Source of the DNA: Sulfurimonas sp.
Lineage (GTDB): Bacteria; Campylobacterota; Campylobacteria; Campylobacterales; Sulfurimonadaceae
NCBI GenBank assembly: GCA_030949825.1
Contig: JAUZSC010000008.1
Coordinates: 124,001-188,000 of the forward strand
DNA: 64,000 bases
Reading direction: 5' to 3'
Part shown: piece after piece, positions 43,865-64,000 of the stretch
Position numbering within the stretch: the first letter of the stretch is position 1
Layout: the number at the start of each line of letters is the position of its first letter
Notes under the pieces: model-generated
What the model was told of the DNA's origin: nothing
Databases searched by the model: none
Seen by the model: only the letters and a program-made list of their open reading frames with translations
Translations under genes and position numbers: made by a program

Positions 43865-45551
43865 TTAAAGTTCAGTTTTGAGTATTGCACCACTTGATGC
43901 ATTTGTTACGAGTAATCTATATCGCTTAAGCCATTTTGAGTTTACTTCGTTTACATGAGGCTTCCAAGCAGCTTTTCTTTTAGCAAGAGTAGCCTCATCA
44001 ACATTAAGCTGCAAAAGGTGATTATCTGTGTCAAGTTCTATCTCGTCACCATCTTCTACAAGTGCAATTAAACCACCCTCAGCTGCTTCTGGAGAAATAT
44101 GTCCAATAGATGCACCACGAGTTGCGCCACTAAATCTACCATCTGTAATAAGAGCAACACTCTCACCAAGTCCCATTCCCATAATAAGTGAGGTAGGAGC
44201 AAGCATCTCTTGCATACCTGGTCCACCTTTTGGTCCCTCATAACGAATAACTACAACATCACCAGCTTTTACTTTGTGTGCCATGATTCCAGCTAAGGCT
44301 TCAGTTTGGGAGTTAAAACAAACAGCGCTACCTTTAAACTGTTTCATATTTCCAGTGATTCCAGCAGTCTTGACAACCGCACCCTCTAAGGCGAGATTTC
44401 CAAAAAAGAATCGAAAGACCACCAACTTGAGAATAAGCATTTTCATTTGTATGAATTATATTTTCATCTAAAATTTTAGCATCTTCGATGCGTTCTGCTA
44501 ATGTTTCACCCGTAATCATTAAAGAATCAAGATTTAAAAGACCACTACGACGAGAAACTTCTGCCATAACAGCATTTACTCCACCCGCTTTATCAACATC
44601 ATCCATATGTACAGTACTTAAAGATGGAGATATTTTAGCGATATGTGCTACTTTATCTGCGATTTTATTAATGTTTTCTATTTTGTATTCGATATCTGAT
44701 TCTCTTGCAATTGCTAGAAGATGTAAAACAGTGTTTGAACTTCCACCCATTGCCATATCTACTACAAATGCATTGTGAATTGCTTTTTCATTTAAAATAT
44801 TTTTCATTTTAAATCGTGGGTCTTCAGATTTTGCCATTTCTACAACACGCCTTGCAGCTTGTTTGACAAGTGCTATTCTCTCAGGAGTCATCGCTAAAAT
44901 CGTTCCATTTCCTGGAAGTGCAATACCCATTGCTTCACAAAGCGTGTTCATAGAGTTTGCTGTAAACATTCCTGAACATGAACCACCTGATGGACAAGCT
45001 TCACACTCTATCTCATATAGCTCTTCGTCAGTCATCTTACCCTCAGCATGTTTTCCAACAGCTTCAAATGCAGTCGCTAAGTCAATAGGCGTACCATCTT
45101 TTTTATGCCCAGCAGCCATTGGACCACCTGAAACAAAGATAGTAGGAACATTAACGCGCAATGCACCCATAATCATCCCTGGAACGATTTTATCGCAGTT
45201 TGGAATACATATCATGGCATCTAACTGATGCGCGTTCATAACAGTCTCTATAGAGTCCGCGATAATCTCACGCGATGGTAAAGAATAAAGCATACCCTCG
45301 TGACCCATAGCTATTCCATCATCAACACCAATCGTGTTAAATACAAAAGGAACTCCACCAGCTTCACGGATAGCCTCTTTAACAATTTCTCCGTACTCAT
45401 GTAAAAAGAAATGCCCTGGAATAATGTCTATATAGCTATTTGCTATCCCAATAAATGGTTTATCGAAGTCTTCATCCTTTAAACCTGTTGCGCGTAATAG
45501 TGAACGGTGTGGAGCTTTGTCAAAACCTTTTTTTATAATATCACTTCTCAT
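43865..45551 (-). CDS. ilvD: dihydroxy-acid dehydratase, broken by one frameshift at ~44400
   Basis: ORFs 44334-45551 and 43865-44446 overlap at an A6 run (T6 in gene sense); with T5 the frame reads [19 protein letters not shown]. Confidence 0.93.
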
Positions 45552-46017: not shown

Positions 46018-46108
46018 GGATCTTTGGCAGAGTTGGTCGAATGCACCGGCCTTGAAAGCCGGCGAGGAGTTAAATCCTCCCAGAGTTCGAATCTCTGAGG
46101 GTCCACCA
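46018..46108 (+). tRNA. tRNA-Ser(UGA); attachment site of genomic island
   Basis: Class II tRNA; ggatctt/agggtcc acceptor stem; anticodon loop ctTGAaa; CCA. Confidence 0.95.
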
Positions 46109-46111
46109 CTT
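46051..46111 (+). repeat. attL: 3' end of tRNA-Ser plus ctt
   Basis: cttgaaagccggcgaggagttaaatcctcccagagttcgaatctctgagggtccaccactt. Confidence 0.9.
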
Positions 46112-48760: not shown

Positions 48761-49066
48761 ATGAATAAGAAAAGCTTGATGGCAATGTGGAATGACATGA
48801 AATTAGTTGTGCTCATGTTGACAGATTACATAAGGGAAGATTATATAAATATTCCTACGAATACAGTTGCTGCTATTGCAGTGATGCTCATCTACATAAT
48901 TAGCCCTATAGACTTTATACCGGATTTTATTCTTGGTCTTGGTTTTATAGATGATTTTATAGTTATAAAAATAGTTTTAATGTTCGTGAAAAAAGATTTA
49001 GAACAATACGAGCTATGGAGAAACAAACAAAAAAAAAGGAGCTACAAATGTTTAAAAAGTTTCTAG
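48761..49066 (+). CDS. DUF1232 (YkvA-like) small membrane protein
   Basis: IYIISPIDFIPDFILGLGFIDDFIVIK. Confidence 0.8.
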   Translation: MNKKSLMAMWNDMKLVVLMLTDYIREDYINIPTNTVAAIAVMLIYIISPIDFIPDFILGLGFIDDFIVIKIVLMFVKKDLEQYELWRNKQKKRSYKCLKSF

Positions 49067-49310: not shown

Positions 49311-49709
49311 ATGAACTTAACAAAAGAACAACTAGAGAAGGCTAAAAAACAGTTTGAAGAAGATATAAAGAATGTAGATGAAGATGATGTTCAATACGCA
49401 TCAAAAAAAGGTACTACAAAAATTAATGGAATGGAAAATAGTATCCCCAGTGTTTTATTAAAAATGTGGGATGACATTAAACTTATGATTGAATTGTTAA
49501 CAGATTATATCAAAGGTAATTACAAAGAAGTACCATGGAATATTATTGCTGCTATAACTGGGGCAATTATTTATTTTGTTTCACCAATAGATGTTATACC
49601 TGATTTTATTCCAGTTGTTGGGTATCTCGATGACGCAGCAGTAATTAAACTTGCTCTTAATTTTTCGCAGGATGATCTTAATAAATATGCAAAATGGAAA
49701 AATATTTAG
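49311..49709 (+). CDS. DUF1232 (YkvA-like) membrane protein, paralogue
   Basis: IYFVSPIDVIPDFIPVVGYLDDAAVIKLAL. Confidence 0.85.
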   Translation: MNLTKEQLEKAKKQFEEDIKNVDEDDVQYASKKGTTKINGMENSIPSVLLKMWDDIKLMIELLTDYIKGNYKEVPWNIIAAITGAIIYFVSPIDVIPDFIPVVGYLDDAAVIKLALNFSQDDLNKYAKWKNI

Positions 49710-50629: not shown

Positions 50630-52261
50630 ATGGAAAATATAAATTTATTTATTAAAGAGAATGTAAAAGACATAGGTGACTCTGTATATATTGCACCTAA
50701 CATCCCAGAAAAGAAATTAAACAATGCAATTAAAGCTTTTAAGTGTGAAAATTTTTATGAATCAATTTTAGCTATTCAAGATGCTACTGTATTTGGAAGT
50801 GCAAAAGAAGGTTTTGTTTTTACCGGTAAAAAGATGATTCATCATGAATATGGTGAATTTATTTATTCTGAAATAGAATCAGTTGAGTATATTGCAGATA
50901 AAAAAGTTGACGATGATAATAATAAAGAAAAAGTAGAAAAACATATTGTTATATCAAAAGATAATAAAAAATATAAATTTGAATATCTTATTGGTATTGA
51001 TGAAGAAAAATTAACAATTTTTTTAAATAGAATAATTACAGAATTTGAAGATTACAAAGAAGAAGACCAACTTAAAATAATATCTGAAATGTCTGATGAA
51101 TTAAAGATATCGTATTTAAAAATTATAATAAATATGACATTTATTGATGATGAAAAAATTGATGAAAAAGAATTAGCTGAGTTATTTTTACTTATGACAA
51201 GACTTAACCTAGATAAAGAATCAAGATTTTCAGTAAGAGCATATATTACTGAAATATCAAAAGAAAATATACAGTCTATAAAAGGTTTACTAGAAATTAT
51301 TAAAAATAATTCTGAAGCTAGCCATCATCGATCATTAATGATTTCACTTGCTAAAGATTTAATAAATGTTTACTTCAGTACCAAAGATACTACAAATAGA
51401 GATTTTAAATTTTTAGATGAAAATAAAAATTTATTTGAATTATCAGATGATGAAATTAATTTAGCTTATGAGACTGTAGAAAACGACTATAAACTGTTAA
51501 CAGAAGATTTAGATGATGATGCTATAAAGAAAAATGCAAAAAAATTAGCATCGACAGCAGCAGCAGCAGGTGCACCATTAGCTGCTGTTTATATTTCAGG
51601 TTCAGTTATTGGAATGTCAGCAGCAGGAATGACATCTGGACTCGCAACTCTTGGTATGGGAATGGGGATGACTGGAGGTTTAGCTGTTATTGGTATTATT
51701 GGTGTTTTATCATACAAAGGTGTGCAACACATAACAGGAGCGAATGAATTAGATAAATATAAAACTAGAGAGTTAATGCTTCATGATGTAATAAAACAAA
51801 CTCAAAAAACAATTTCATTAATCATTGATGATGTAAATTATATAGTTCAAAAATTAAATGATACTATGTTAAATCATAGTGACCAAACAGAAAAAATCAA
51901 AAAACTTACTTATATGATGGCTCAATTTCAAGGAGCTTTAAAAAGTGTTGATAATAAAGCAAGTATATATCAGAATACAGCTAATAGACTTCACAACCCT
52001 AAAGTTTTAGATGAAGAAAGGTTTAAATCTTTAACTGAAGAGCCAACAAAAAAACCATTATATGATTTTGTTATTGTAAATTATGAGTTAAAAATGATTG
52101 AAACCGACAATGAAAAAGTTGAAAATCTTGTTTTAAAAGAAGATGTGACAACAGAAGTATTAGATAAAATGTCAGAAATATTTAAAGCCTTAGGTTATTT
52201 TGACATGGATAATATTTTAAAATCAAAAGCTTCTGGAATGATAAAAGGTATCTTTGGATGA
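50630..52261 (+). CDS. uncharacterised protein: PH-like N-terminus, TerB-like helical region, Gly/Ala-rich TM hairpin, coiled C-terminus
   Basis: 543 aa; GFVFTGKKMIHHEYGEFIYSEIESVEYI (PH-like), INMTFIDDEKIDEKELAELFLLMTRLNL (TerB-like), GSVIGMSAAGMTSGLATLGMGMGMTGGLAVIGIIGVL. Confidence 0.75.
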   Translation: MENINLFIKENVKDIGDSVYIAPNIPEKKLNNAIKAFKCENFYESILAIQDATVFGSAKEGFVFTGKKMIHHEYGEFIYSEIESVEYIADKKVDDDNNKEKVEKHIVISKDNKKYKFEYLIGIDEEKLTIFLNRIITEFEDYKEEDQLKIISEMSDELKISYLKIIINMTFIDDEKIDEKELAELFLLMTRLNLDKESRFSVRAYITEISKENIQSIKGLLEIIKNNSEASHHRSLMISLAKDLINVYFSTKDTTNRDFKFLDENKNLFELSDDEINLAYETVENDYKLLTEDLDDDAIKKNAKKLASTAAAAGAPLAAVYISGSVIGMSAAGMTSGLATLGMGMGMTGGLAVIGIIGVLSYKGVQHITGANELDKYKTRELMLHDVIKQTQKTISLIIDDVNYIVQKLNDTMLNHSDQTEKIKKLTYMMAQFQGALKSVDNKASIYQNTANRLHNPKVLDEERFKSLTEEPTKKPLYDFVIVNYELKMIETDNEKVENLVLKEDVTTEVLDKMSEIFKALGYFDMDNILKSKASGMIKGIFG

Positions 52262-53769
52262 AACAAGATTATTTAAAAGATGAAGGAAATACTTTAAGAG
52301 TACAAAAGCATCAATTAAATAATACAGATGATAAATTATCTGAAGTTGACAGTATATTGTCAGGTTTACAAAAAGAGCAGTCAAGTAATAATGAATCTCT
52401 TGACGATATGATGGCTAGTATGGAAAGTTTATTGCAAAATAGTTCATCTGTAGTTTCAGCTGAAACTGCAGATGAAAATATAATGCTTATTGAAAATGAA
52501 TTAAATTGTAATATGGATAGACAAAATATATCATTAGTATCTGAAATAGACCATATACAATTAAATGAAAATTCAACTTGGGAAGACTATACAAAGGCAA
52601 TAGAAGATTATGGCTTTAAGCATAATTTAGATTTAAAAGAAGACCCATTTAAACACTTAATGACAAAATCTCAACAAGTAGAACTTCAAAAACGAATAAA
52701 AGATGACTTTACTCTTAAAAATGCTAATTGTGACAAATATGATTATATGATGGCTGGAACATGTGGGGTAATTGGTGGGCTAATTGATATTTTATTTGTG
52801 GGTGCTCCAGGAGATAGTAAACTAGGTGATATTGCAGATAATCAAGTAAATGAAATAACAGAAAAATTTGCAGAATTTGTAGGGTGGAATAAAGACAAAG
52901 CAGTTGAAAAAGGAAAAAATACAACAGCAAGTGCGATAGGATATTTAGAGGGTAAGTTTAAAATTAACTATGACCAAGCAACAACACATGCAACAGATGG
53001 TGCAGTTAATAATTTATCTTTAAAGAACCATCATTTGAAAAGCTTAGGACACTCTCCTGACTTAATAGGCTTATTTTTCTCAATATTAAATCAATTTACA
53101 AGTACATCAACTTTTGTAAGCAATGGAAAAATAATAACTATTGATACAAAAACATTTGATTTACAAGGTAATGATTTTGTATCTAAAGTTTTTTGTGGTT
53201 TTGCTAATTGGTTTGGACATATCATGTCTGATTGGTCTGGTTCATCAGGAACAGTAGGACAAGGTGGAAGAGGAACAGGAGTGCCAATACCATTTTTTAA
53301 TTTATTCCAATTAATGAATTTTGGAGAATTTGGACAAAATAAACAAACTTTTGCAACAGTAACAGCAAAAGTTTTTGAAAATGGTTATGATACAAGACAT
53401 GCAATGGCAATGGCAATACCAGTTCTAACCACAGAACTATTAATTAGATTTATGTACACAATGAAAGCACACTTTTATCATGAAAAAGATTGGAAAGATT
53501 CCATTCCTAATGCTAATATTCCAGAATTGAGAAGAATGTTATTGGTTGGTCATGGAACACTTTGTTTAATTGATGGTGTTGATACTTATATCCGTTCGGG
53601 TGGAGAAATGGTTACATTTTTATCAAGAACAAATTTACTAGCATGGGCTAGATTTGGACAACTTGGATTAAAAGAGCTGAATGCTTGGTACAATTTAGGT
53701 GGTGTTGATGCTGATGCCATTGATATGTATTTAGATAAAGAGTATAAAAAAATACTAAATAAATATTAA
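52258..53769 (+). CDS. uncharacterised 503-aa protein, translationally coupled to the previous gene
   Basis: ATGA overlap; NANCDKYDYMMAGTCGVIGGLIDILFVGAPG...HHLKSLGHSPDLIGLFFSILNQFTSTSTF; no recognised enzyme motif. Confidence 0.75.
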   Translation: MKQDYLKDEGNTLRVQKHQLNNTDDKLSEVDSILSGLQKEQSSNNESLDDMMASMESLLQNSSSVVSAETADENIMLIENELNCNMDRQNISLVSEIDHIQLNENSTWEDYTKAIEDYGFKHNLDLKEDPFKHLMTKSQQVELQKRIKDDFTLKNANCDKYDYMMAGTCGVIGGLIDILFVGAPGDSKLGDIADNQVNEITEKFAEFVGWNKDKAVEKGKNTTASAIGYLEGKFKINYDQATTHATDGAVNNLSLKNHHLKSLGHSPDLIGLFFSILNQFTSTSTFVSNGKIITIDTKTFDLQGNDFVSKVFCGFANWFGHIMSDWSGSSGTVGQGGRGTGVPIPFFNLFQLMNFGEFGQNKQTFATVTAKVFENGYDTRHAMAMAIPVLTTELLIRFMYTMKAHFYHEKDWKDSIPNANIPELRRMLLVGHGTLCLIDGVDTYIRSGGEMVTFLSRTNLLAWARFGQLGLKELNAWYNLGGVDADAIDMYLDKEYKKILNKY

Positions 53770-53855: not shown

Positions 53856-54728
53856 ATGAAAAACCACGACACAATAGCAACAAGACTAGCCCAAATTCTA
53901 AACAAACTAAACTCAGGTGAAAGACTTGATGTCGAAGAGTTGGTAGAAGAGTTTGGAGTAACCAAGAGAACTATTCAAAGAGACCTCAATGAAAGACTAT
54001 CTTATCTACCTCTAAAAAAGCAAAATAATCTCTATTTCTTAGAAGAGTATTACTTAGGTAAGCTTAACTTTGATGACATGAAGAACTTTGCAGCTCTTAG
54101 TGGTATAAGGGAGTTATTTCCCTCCCTCCAAGAAAACTTCATTAAAGATATACTAGATGCTACCGTAAGTAAAGCCTACCTTATTAAAGGGCATAACTAT
54201 GAAGATATGAGTGACAAGACTTCAGAGTTTGAACTTACACAGAGTGCTATTCTCTTAAACAAACTCCTAGAGTTCACTTATAAAGATAAACCTAGAGTTA
54301 TCAAACCCTATAAGCTTATCAACTCTAAAGGTATTTGGTATCTTGCTGGTGTAGAGGGAGAGATACTTAAAACATTTTCATTTAGTAAAATAACTAAGCT
54401 TGTAGCTACGGAGATAGTATTTGATAGTGATGATAATATATTAGAAACTATTAAAGATGATGACAACATTTGGTTTAGTTCTAAGCAGATAGAAGTTGTT
54501 TTAAAAGTAGACTATGATGTAGCTGGTTACTTTACTAGAAGAAATATTCTACCAAATCAATTCATAATCAAAAAACTAGCAGATGGTGGACTACTTGTAT
54601 CTACTAAAGTGTCTTACGATGAAGAGATACTAAAGCTTGTACGATACTGGATTCCAAATGTAAGCATAGTTTCTCCAACTTATCTACAAGAAAAGCTAGA
54701 AGATGGTTTGAGAAAGTATCTGAAGTAA
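53856..54728 (+). CDS. HTH + WYL-domain transcriptional regulator
   Basis: RLDVEELVEEFGVTKRTIQRDLNERL (HTH); WYLAGVEGEILKTFSFSKITKL. Confidence 0.88.
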   Translation: MKNHDTIATRLAQILNKLNSGERLDVEELVEEFGVTKRTIQRDLNERLSYLPLKKQNNLYFLEEYYLGKLNFDDMKNFAALSGIRELFPSLQENFIKDILDATVSKAYLIKGHNYEDMSDKTSEFELTQSAILLNKLLEFTYKDKPRVIKPYKLINSKGIWYLAGVEGEILKTFSFSKITKLVATEIVFDSDDNILETIKDDDNIWFSSKQIEVVLKVDYDVAGYFTRRNILPNQFIIKKLADGGLLVSTKVSYDEEILKLVRYWIPNVSIVSPTYLQEKLEDGLRKYLK

Positions 54729-55955: not shown

Positions 55956-56488
55956 AAACCATGTTTAAAGATACAATAGAAATACTAAACTTTACACTTG
56001 AGCTTATAAAAAACAAGCAAGTTAAACAGAAACCTGCTAAAGAGATTTATGACCTTTACACACATTTAAATGAGATGAAGAAAAAAATGAACTTACTTAT
56101 CCACTTTATGCAAAGGGATTGGAGAGAATACAATGAAGATACGCAACATGGCTCTCGTATGAAAAAGTGGGTAGTGTTTGTAAATCAAGAATTGTATGAT
56201 TATGTTGATAGTAAGTATATGATGTTTTGTAAGGTACTCAAACTTGAAAGAACTCCATTTCCATATGAAGGAGTGCTAACTATGAACTTCTTTAACAAGC
56301 GTCTCAATTGTAAGCTAAATAAATATTTGGATTTACCTGTATTTGATGATGAAATGACATTAACACTCTATAGTTTTAACTTTGTAGCACTAGAGCAAAC
56401 AGACTATGCTTCTGTAGACTACGAAATCCCCCTGTGTCAGGATAGTTGTCCGAAACTTATGATATAAATCTTAATAAGGAACAAGACA

Positions 56489-57124
56489 ATGAGATATAGT
56501 AAAGCATACAAAGAAAAAGCAGTAAAAAAAGTGTTGGAAATGAGAGACACCCAAACTATGGGAACAATAGCAAAAGGCTTAAATATCTCAAAAGCCACCC
56601 TGCACATATGGCTAAAAAATACTAAGGATACTCAAACAACAGATGGAGTGATAACACTTTCTGATAAGCTCCAAATCCTAAAAGAAAGCTACAGCATGAA
56701 CGATGAAGCACTCAGTGCTTACTGCAGAGAGAAAGGTCTATTTAAACATCAACTCCAAGAGTGGGAGAAGGACTTCCTTAAAGTCCATAAACCTGAAGAC
56801 TCTACCGCTAAGAAAGCCCTAGAGGAGGAGAGAAGTAAGAGTAAAGCCTTAGCCAAGGAGTTGCGACGAAAGGAAAAGGCTCTAGCAGAGACAGCAACAC
56901 TCTTAGTATTGCAAAAAGTTTCAAGCACTGTTGGAGGGAGAGGAAGTATGATACCTCTAGCAGTGCGAAAAGATATCTTAATCCTTGTTACACAAGCACA
57001 TACAGATGGAGCACCTTTTTATAAAATAGCCCCTATCGTAGGATGTTGCACGAGAACACTCAAAAGATGGCAAGCTAATGAGCAGGATAAGCAGAACCCA
57101 GCGAATAAACTTCGAACCAACTAA
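56489..57124 (+). CDS. IS3-family transposase OrfA (HTH)
   Basis: SKAYKEKAVKKVLEMRDTQTMGTIAKGLNISKATLHIWLKN; near-identical to 63239 ORF. Confidence 0.85.
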   Translation: MRYSKAYKEKAVKKVLEMRDTQTMGTIAKGLNISKATLHIWLKNTKDTQTTDGVITLSDKLQILKESYSMNDEALSAYCREKGLFKHQLQEWEKDFLKVHKPEDSTAKKALEEERSKSKALAKELRRKEKALAETATLLVLQKVSSTVGGRGSMIPLAVRKDILILVTQAHTDGAPFYKIAPIVGCCTRTLKRWQANEQDKQNPANKLRTN

Positions 57125-58016
57125 CAAACTCTCTCAAGAGGAGAGAGAGCAGCTGATAAGCGTTGCTAACAATGAGAGCTATAAAAACCTATCCTCGCAT
57201 CAAATAGTGCCTAAGCTTGCAGACAAAGGAATTTACCTTGCATCTGAATCAACATTTTACAGAGTACTCAAAGAGCATAAGCAACTGACCCATAGACATA
57301 AACAAAAAGAAGGGAGTAGACATAAGCCAACTCCTTTGGTAGCCTCAGAGCCTAATCAAATATACAGTTGGGATATTACTTATCTACCAACAACAGTGCA
57401 AGGTGTATTTTATTACCTTTACCTCTTTATGGATATATATAGTCGCAAGATAGTCGGATGGCAAATCTATACCAAACAGAGCAGCGAGTTGGCTTCTGAA
57501 GTTATTAAAGATATAGCTATTAATGAAAACATCAAAGTAGATACAGTAACACTGCACTCAGACAATGGCTCCCCTATGAAAGGAGCTACATTTTTAACAA
57601 CACTTCAAAAGCTAGGCATTATGCCCACCTTTAGTAGACCTAGCGTGAGTAACGATAATCCTTACTCAGAGTCCATGTTTAAAACACTCAAATATACACC
57701 CTCCTATCCTAGTAAGCCATTTGATAGTGTAGTTGAGGCAAGAATATGGTGTGAAACATTTGTGACTTGGTATAACCATCAACACTGTCATAGTAGTATT
57801 GGGTTTGTCACACCAGTTCAAAGACACTTGCTTCAAGATAAGGAGATTTTAGAGAAAAGACATCGAGTATATGAGAAGGCTAAAGCAGCCAACCCTCGTA
57901 GATGGAGTGGTAGTACTCGTAACTGGTATTTCACAAAAGAAGTACATTTAAACCCCAATAAAGCAAAGGTAAACAATATAGCTGATAAAGTTTCAGCTGA
58001 AAGACATTCGGGTTAG
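57078..58016 (+). CDS. IS3-family transposase OrfB (rve/DDE integrase domain)
   Basis: IYSWDITYLPTTVQGVFYYLYLFMDIYSRKIVGWQIY; HSDNGSPMKGATF; DNPYSESMFKTLKY. Confidence 0.9.
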   Translation: MSRISRTQRINFEPTNKLSQEEREQLISVANNESYKNLSSHQIVPKLADKGIYLASESTFYRVLKEHKQLTHRHKQKEGSRHKPTPLVASEPNQIYSWDITYLPTTVQGVFYYLYLFMDIYSRKIVGWQIYTKQSSELASEVIKDIAINENIKVDTVTLHSDNGSPMKGATFLTTLQKLGIMPTFSRPSVSNDNPYSESMFKTLKYTPSYPSKPFDSVVEARIWCETFVTWYNHQHCHSSIGFVTPVQRHLLQDKEILEKRHRVYEKAKAANPRRWSGSTRNWYFTKEVHLNPNKAKVNNIADKVSAERHSG

Positions 58017-60123: not shown

Positions 60124-60184
60124 CTTGAAAGCCGGCGAGGAGTTAAATCCTCCCAGAGTTCGAATCTCTGAGGGTCCACCACTT
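60124..60184 (+). repeat. attR: duplicated 3' end of tRNA-Ser
   Basis: 61-bp perfect copy of 46051-46111. Confidence 0.92.
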
Positions 60185-60279
60185 CTTAATAATCACAAAC
60201 CTTTGAAACCCTTACAACCCCTTGCTTAACAGCTATTTTACTGTTTTGAACGATTTAGAGGGAGACACAAAAGGCGATA
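60168..60279 (+). repeat. 112-bp inverted repeat, left arm
   Basis: Perfect reverse complement of 61787-61898; starts inside attR (ctgagggtccaccactt). Confidence 0.93.
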
Positions 60280-60297: not shown

Positions 60298-61548
60298 ATG
60301 CTTGGATTACCTATGAGTATCTCTTTATCCACCAACAAAAACGAATATTATTGCTTACGATTTCGTGTCCATAAGAGATTAATCCCCTACTTCAAGAAAC
60401 CACTCATCCGAAAATCACTTTACACCAAAAATAAGAGACAAGCTCAACTAAAAGCAGATAAGATTTATGATCCCTATCAACAGATATTGAATACTGTATC
60501 AATCATAACTACTGAACAAACTCAACAGCTTGTAGATAAATTCATTGAAGAACAATTAGAACAAAATACGATGAAAACATTTACGATAGACTCAACCAAA
60601 TACAAAGCTCTATCATCCATTACAATTGAAGATGCTTATAACAAATTCTGTGTCTGGTATAAACAACAAAGGATAGGCGAAAAGCAATACTCACTTACTA
60701 CCAAGAAAATACACAATATTATTATCCCATTTATCGGTATGAACACTAATGTAGATGATATTACTCTTGAAACGATTGAAGAGTTTAGGGAGTTTCTGCT
60801 TACTATGCCTAATGTCAACAAATTCATATACAAACATTTATCTTTCACTCAACTCATACATTTATCTGATACACCACAAGAAGACTTAATTACCGTTAGC
60901 ACTCAAATTAAATATCTGAAAATAGTAAAACAGTTTTTCCTCTACATGATTAAAGCTAATCTAATCAAATATAATCCATGCAGCTTACTCACTATGCCAA
61001 ATAATACCATTCCAAACAGAGAACCATTTGATGATGCAGATATGCAGAAGTTATTCAAGATATTTGATGACTTAGATGACAGAAAATATATTTACTATAT
61101 CCTTGCATATACGGGCATGAGACCTTCTGAACTATGGAAGTGTAAAATCTCAGTTAGCGATACAAATATAGTGTATTTTGATTTGACCGAAAAAACGATA
61201 CAATTAAAAACACTCTCAAGTAATCGGGCTATACCACTTCACAACAAATTATTAGAGATGGGTATAGACAAAAAACTATCTTCATTACAATCTTGTTTTA
61301 CTCAAACTGCTATCAGTATCTACTTCAACAAAGTCATTAAAAATATGATTACCGATGAAAAAAATAAGATTATGTACTCTTTTAGACATACGGTCGCAAC
61401 TGAACTAAAAAGAGCTGAAGTTCATATGGATAAAGTTTCTGAACTGTTAGGTCATAGTTATACCAATAGTTCAATGACAAAAGAAGTTTATGCCCAAGGA
61501 TATACCCTTGAACAGCTTCAAGTAGCAATCAATCATCTAAACTTTTAA
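60298..61548 (+). CDS. tyrosine recombinase/phage-type integrase
   Basis: TGMRPSELW, YSFRHTVATELKRAE, ELLGHSYTNSSMTKEVYAQGY (R..HxxR..H..Y). Confidence 0.92.
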   Translation: MLGLPMSISLSTNKNEYYCLRFRVHKRLIPYFKKPLIRKSLYTKNKRQAQLKADKIYDPYQQILNTVSIITTEQTQQLVDKFIEEQLEQNTMKTFTIDSTKYKALSSITIEDAYNKFCVWYKQQRIGEKQYSLTTKKIHNIIIPFIGMNTNVDDITLETIEEFREFLLTMPNVNKFIYKHLSFTQLIHLSDTPQEDLITVSTQIKYLKIVKQFFLYMIKANLIKYNPCSLLTMPNNTIPNREPFDDADMQKLFKIFDDLDDRKYIYYILAYTGMRPSELWKCKISVSDTNIVYFDLTEKTIQLKTLSSNRAIPLHNKLLEMGIDKKLSSLQSCFTQTAISIYFNKVIKNMITDEKNKIMYSFRHTVATELKRAEVHMDKVSELLGHSYTNSSMTKEVYAQGYTLEQLQVAINHLNF

Positions 61549-61786: not shown

Positions 61787-61898
61787 TATCGCCTTTTGTG
61801 TCTCCCTCTAAATCGTTCAAAACAGTAAAATAGCTGTTAAGCAAGGGGTTGTAAGGGTTTCAAAGGTTTGTGATTATTAAGAAGTGGTGGACCCTCAG
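61787..61898 (-). repeat. 112-bp inverted repeat, right arm
   Basis: Perfect reverse complement of 60168-60279. Confidence 0.93.
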
Positions 61899-62095
61899 CT
61901 TAAAATAAAATCATTACATACACACTTGTAAGCACCATTCTATCTTTTGTGTCTCCCTCTAAATCGTTCAAAACAGTAAAATAGCTGTTAAGCAAGGGGT
62001 TGTAAGGGTTTCAAAGGTTTGTGATTATTAAGAAGTGGTGGACCCTCAGCTTAAAATAAAATCATTACATACACACTTGTAAGCACCATTCTATC
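61793..62095. repeat. 151-bp tandem duplication (two copies) including most of the right inverted-repeat arm
   Basis: cttttgtgtctccctctaaatcg...gtggtggaccctcag...caccattctatc repeats with period 151; 16-bp third start at 62128-62143. Confidence 0.92.
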
Positions 62096-63141: not shown

Positions 63142-63177
63142 GATAATTCCTTAATTCCTTTATATGGTGTACCATAA

Positions 63178-64000
63178 CCCCCTGTGTCAGGATAGTTGTC
63201 CGAAACTTATGATATAAATCTTAATAAGGAACAAGACAATGAGATATAGTAAAGCATACAAAGAAAAAGCAGTAAAAAAAGTGTTGGAAATGAGAGACAC
63301 CCAAACTATGGGAACAATAGCAAAAGGCTTAAATATCTCAAAAGCCACCCTGCACATATGGCTAAAAAATACTAAGGATACTCAAACAACAGATGGAGTG
63401 ATAACACTTTCTGATAAGCTCCAAATCCTAAAAGAAAGCTACAGCATGAACGATGAAGCACTCAGTGCTTACTGCAGAGAGAAAGGTCTATTTAAACATC
63501 AACTCCAAGAGTGGGAGAAGGACTTCCTTAAAGCCCATAAACCTGAAGACTCTACCGCTAAGAAAGCCCTAGAGGAGGAGAGAAGTAAGAGTAAAGCCTT
63601 AGCCAAGGAGTTGCGACGAAAGGAAAAGGCTCTAGCAGAGACAGCAACACTCTTAGTATTGCAAAAAAGTTTCAAGCACTGTTGGAGGGAGAGGAAGTAT
63701 GATACCTCTAGCAGTGCGAAAAGATATCTTAATCCTTGTTACACAAGCACATACAGATGGAGCACCTTTTTATAAAATAGCCCCTATCGTAGGATGTTGC
63801 ACGAGAACACTCAAAAGATGGCAAGCTAATGAGCAGGATAAGCAGAACCCAGCGAATAAACTTCGAACCAACTAACAAACTCTCTCAAGAGGAGAGAGAG
63901 CAGCTGATAAGCGTTGCTAACAATGAGAGCTATAAAAACCTATCCTCGCATCAAATAGTGCCTAAGCTTGCAGACAAAGGAATTTACCTTGCATCTGAAT
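63178..64000 (+). mobile_element. IS3-family insertion sequence, copy 2 (truncated by window end)
   Basis: Starts ccccctgtgtcaggatagttgtccgaaa; near-identical to copy 1 at a constant 6750-bp offset until the A-run indel. Confidence 0.9.
63239..63775 (+). CDS. IS3-family transposase OrfA, copy 2 (frame altered at A6 run)
   Basis: Same as 56489 ORF to LLVLQK, then frame differs by one A. Confidence 0.8.
   Translation: MRYSKAYKEKAVKKVLEMRDTQTMGTIAKGLNISKATLHIWLKNTKDTQTTDGVITLSDKLQILKESYSMNDEALSAYCREKGLFKHQLQEWEKDFLKAHKPEDSTAKKALEEERSKSKALAKELRRKEKALAETATLLVLQKSFKHCWRERKYDTSSSAKRYLNPCYTSTYRWSTFL

Follow-up and report, generated by a model that had tools for sequence, protein, structure and literature searches.

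A gene pair on a tRNA-Ser island of a Campylobacterota bacterium matches both components of the Bunzi anti-phage system

Introduction

Bunzi is a two-gene anti-phage system attributed to Millman et al. (2022, Cell Host & Microbe) by a review through which we cite that work, and which places Bunzi together with Shango under the TerB domain (PMC10952713). Genome surveys have since reported it in Aeromonas (PMC11206119), on Salmonella IncHI1 plasmids (PMC11305592), in E. coli (PMC10121019) and in Staphylococcus borealis (PMC12482510), and according to a review from 2026 the mechanism is still unknown (PMC12926258). Shango includes both a helicase and an ATPase (PMC10250203). Two further entries of the PADLOC collection come close to Bunzi: the candidate system PDC-M09, whose M09A-type proteins lie one to two genes downstream of BnzB homologues, mainly in Bacillota, and LeoBC, a dynamin-associated defence protein.

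The locus described here lies in a stretch of 64,000 nucleotides of Sulfurimonas sp. DNA (the window). An earlier note on this DNA had read two of its genes as a candidate undescribed membrane stress or defence operon with a TerB-like region. Judged from its sequence, the locus is very probably a complete and intact Bunzi system carried on a tRNA-Ser island of this Campylobacterota bacterium.

Results

The two genes, bnzA (50630-52261, forward strand, 543 aa) and bnzB (52258-53769, forward strand, 503 aa), are adjacent and share an ATGA at 52258-52261; coordinates, lengths and coupling are exactly as the earlier note had claimed, and both reading frames are intact and full length. When compared with PADLOC-DB 2.0.0, the first protein matches BnzA with 549.6 bits (E 1.9e-165) over residues 1-542 and model positions 1-543 of 544, and the second matches BnzB with 663 bits (E 9.4e-200) over positions 7-502 of 504. 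These matches bear out the assignment to a membrane-linked two-gene phage-defence operon and, running along essentially the full length of both proteins, take away its claim to be undescribed; the novel-system reading was rejected on their account, and the locus is a new instance of an already known system. The gene pair had looked new because Pfam and NCBIfam lack a model for either protein, and a reading of the locus from Pfam only would wrongly suggest novelty.

The pair resembles Bunzi in that both components are full length, adjacent and in the same order, in a membrane-linked and probably TerB-associated system, whereas only sequence divergence separates the two, an adjacent WYL regulator being a feature of some loci only. 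The other systems differ more. Shango has the TerB label in common with Bunzi, but its helicase and ATPase domains are absent from the nine neighbouring window proteins scanned. The window has BnzA in place of the PDC-M09 partner, with an M09A match in none of the nine window proteins scanned. LeoBC is weakly similar to the membrane and coil part of BnzA (PADLOC, residues 225-424, E 4e-05), but the match is partial and a dynamin-like GTPase (LeoA) is lacking among the window neighbours scanned.

The AlphaFold2 model of BnzA (mean pLDDT 74) places a PH-like unit of seven strands and a helix at about residues 46-138, an all-helical block at 156-291, a Gly/Ala segment without modelled structure at 322-376 (pLDDT < 50), and a long coil at 378-454 followed by a small alpha/beta tail. 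The PH-like, helical and coiled parts proposed for the first gene are thus found in the model, but the TerB label did not carry over to Pfam, where TerB had no match in BnzA of the window or its relatives; the nearest to it was a DUF533 match in one relative (E 1.3e-4), and a weak bPH_3 match was obtained in one relative (E 0.0068). The proposed transmembrane hairpin in the Gly/Ala segment is only weakly hydrophobic (Kyte-Doolittle maximum 1.76). Hydrophobic segments occur in both BnzA and BnzB.

BnzB (AlphaFold2 model, pLDDT 73) consists of an N-terminal coil, missing from shorter homologues, and a highly conserved helical core, and the core motifs that had been quoted for the second gene are found in it. 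An alignment of 24 sequences related to BnzB contains more than 50 invariant columns, many of them polar, and the invariant residues include N257, H258, H259, H265, D268 and H321 as well as S324, D325, R338, R380 and D442. Pfam, NCBIfam and PHROGs returned no significant family for either protein. When the two AlphaFold2 models were compared with the PDB by Foldseek, no structure matched at E <= 0.001 and no fold recurred consistently, which is probably due to the moderate confidence of the models; for BnzB the comparison gave no known enzymatic or pore fold. Sequence searches of the PDB with BnzA and BnzB found no relative and nothing useful.

A scan of genomes with BnzB yielded 24 loci. Wherever a long-form BnzB (about 490-530 aa) had upstream sequence, BnzA lay immediately before it (9/9 loci: L006-L011, L029 on a Vibrio plasmid, L031 on a Lactococcus plasmid and L034 in a congener), so that the pair was co-conserved in nine independent loci from several phyla, with the order bnzA-bnzB found in Campylobacterota, Gammaproteobacteria, Mariprofundaceae and Lactococcus. 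Full-length BnzB is present in only two of 400 genomes of the order, the genome under study and congener G231, which also encodes BnzA (61% identity to that of the window for BnzA and 70% for BnzB). The congener pair sits at about 448 kb, distant from the tRNA-Ser site of that genome at 1.78 Mb; since it occupies another site and the pair is found in so few genomes, bnzAB is both mobile, by horizontal movement, and rare. Homologues of bnzB are carried on the island, on plasmids and in a phage genome, and a scan of viral contigs with BnzA gave no match. The cargo around bnzAB in the congener locus (L034) is unlike that of the window except for the WYL gene, and 3' of the pair (L034:10724-11734) it encodes a protein in which an FRG-like stretch (YRGQNEY) can be recognised by eye.

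At 16 loci (L012-L017 and L019-L028), mainly from Bacillota but also from a few other hosts, the encoded BnzB is shorter, at about 425-460 aa, and BnzA was not found. In 13 of them a membrane protein rich in Gly and Ala, about 340-375 aa long, is encoded one to two genes downstream, 11 of these proteins having been aligned (57-79% identity to the first) and two recognised by eye. Both of the membrane proteins scanned match PADLOC PDC-M09A (E 1e-31 and 8e-31), and one of the two also matches LeoBC (E 4e-7). Directly after BnzB, 11 of the short-form loci encode a cysteine-rich protein of 81-93 aa with a CxxCxxCC-like motif, and in five a TerB-like protein is encoded upstream, the profile of which matches the solved TerB-family protein 2ou3 (E 3.2e-5). 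The operons at L014:5495-8516 and L028:5537-8565 are examples that combine the TerB protein, short BnzB, the CxxCxxCC mini-protein and the PDC-M09A-type protein. Some short-form operons have a WYL regulator upstream. A Lactiplantibacillus plasmid and a gut phage genome likewise encode an M09A protein (E about 1e-70) after BnzB. PDC-M09B was considered as a BnzB homologue and rejected, the match being C-terminal and weak (E 0.005). Profile-profile comparisons of BnzA gave no significant link to the Bacillota TerB protein or to the Gly/Ala membrane protein, so a fused BnzA and the split set correspond by their architecture and not by proven homology.

The pair lies on an island of about 14 kb between exact 61-bp direct repeats on the forward strand, the left one (46051-46111) forming the 3' end of a tRNA-Ser(TGA) gene and the right one at 60124-60184; a 25-base core of the repeat has no copy in the genome beyond these two. 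Congeners share the conserved tRNA cluster, and many of the matches end at the end of the tRNA-Ser gene (query about 662, window 46111). In several congeners (G404, G407, G408 and G231) the 3' end of the tRNA is found once more, some 7-25 kb downstream, which makes the tRNA-Ser gene look like a hotspot of integration. The bnzAB pair looks like cargo of a roughly 14-kb insert at this gene.

The island and the WYL gene described by the earlier note were both recovered, but its toxin-antitoxin genes were not, no such pair being present among the neighbouring proteins scanned. The WYL/HTH regulator (53856-54728, forward strand; Pfam WYL 5.6e-07, WCX 4.9e-08, HTH_DeoR 4e-08) adjoins bnzB, and of 30 loci, 10, including some from Bacillota, have a similar WYL gene close to bnzB. 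The WYL protein probably regulates the Bunzi pair, an arrangement that is not universal, and it is not a defining part of Bunzi.

Several other features of the region were observed. Upstream of bnzA the island also encodes two tandem small DUF1232 membrane proteins (48761-49066, E 4.9e-12; 49311-49709, E 3.2e-15), and near-identical IS3-type transposase stretches lie inside (56420-57212) and outside it (63170-63963). Just beyond the right repeat, a gene at 60298-61548 reads by eye as a tyrosine recombinase and is flanked by a perfect inverted repeat of 112 bp (60168-60279, 61787-61898, 61944-62049) that takes in the final 17 bp of the att-like repeat, and the right arm of which sits in an exact tandem duplication of 151 bp (61793-62094). 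Site-specific inversion or an assembly artefact are possible explanations of this structure. On the other side of the island, an ilvD gene (dihydroxy-acid dehydratase-like, 43865-45551, reverse strand) is split into two overlapping frames (43865-44446 and 44334-45551) by a frameshift that is either real or from assembly.

Discussion

How the two Bunzi proteins might act can be sketched from their anatomy. BnzA would be anchored at the inner membrane through its Gly/Ala-rich segment. The PH-like, helical and coiled-coil parts of the protein may sense changes linked to infection and hold BnzB. Once activated, BnzB, the core of which has invariant His, Asp, Ser and Arg residues between hydrophobic helices, would act at the membrane by permeabilisation or some other chemistry, and phage production would be stopped, perhaps at the expense of the infected cell. 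We infer this division of labour, with BnzA as membrane-anchored sensor or scaffold and BnzB as effector core at the inner membrane, only tentatively. Nearly as likely, and itself doubtful, is the opposite assignment for the same system, by which BnzA would be the membrane effector, forming a pore or disrupting the membrane through its hairpin, and BnzB a sensor or hub that keeps BnzA inactive. The Gly/Ala segment of BnzA does resemble in kind that of the LeoBC and PDC-M09A-type proteins, and the swapped roles come this close because the BnzB core stays constant while the membrane partner varies between host groups; however, BnzB is the most conserved component, and its invariant polar residues are of the kind usual in an active site or a binding site.

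It is very improbable that the pair is a housekeeping or envelope-stress membrane operon and not primarily anti-phage. The name of TerB-type domains goes back to tellurite resistance, an origin that would suit such a role, and envelope-stress genes adjoin bnzAB on the Lactococcus plasmid, but the rarity of full-length BnzB in the order, the carriage of its homologues on mobile elements and phage, and the match to a system reported as anti-phage all argue against it. Slighter still is the chance that the locus is a decayed, non-functional remnant of Bunzi: insertion-sequence genes do lie near the pair on the island, yet neither frame is broken or shortened, and the overlap and the invariant residues have been kept.

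The short-form operons suggest, but do not prove, a core common to Bunzi and PDC-M09-like operons. We hold it somewhat more probable than the contrary that a wider defence superfamily is built around the BnzB core as its hub, with membrane partners that can be exchanged: either BnzA, which would combine PH-like, TerB-like, membrane and coil parts in one chain, or, mainly in Bacillota, the split set of TerB, CxxCxxCC and M09A-type proteins. If this is true, Bunzi and PDC-M09 are variants of one mechanism. The idea bears on the relatives, the form in the window being the standard one. The Bacillota operons, in which these parts are split, hint at the functional units within BnzA, and the invariant residues of BnzB provide a list for mutagenesis with which the mechanism of Bunzi may be approached.
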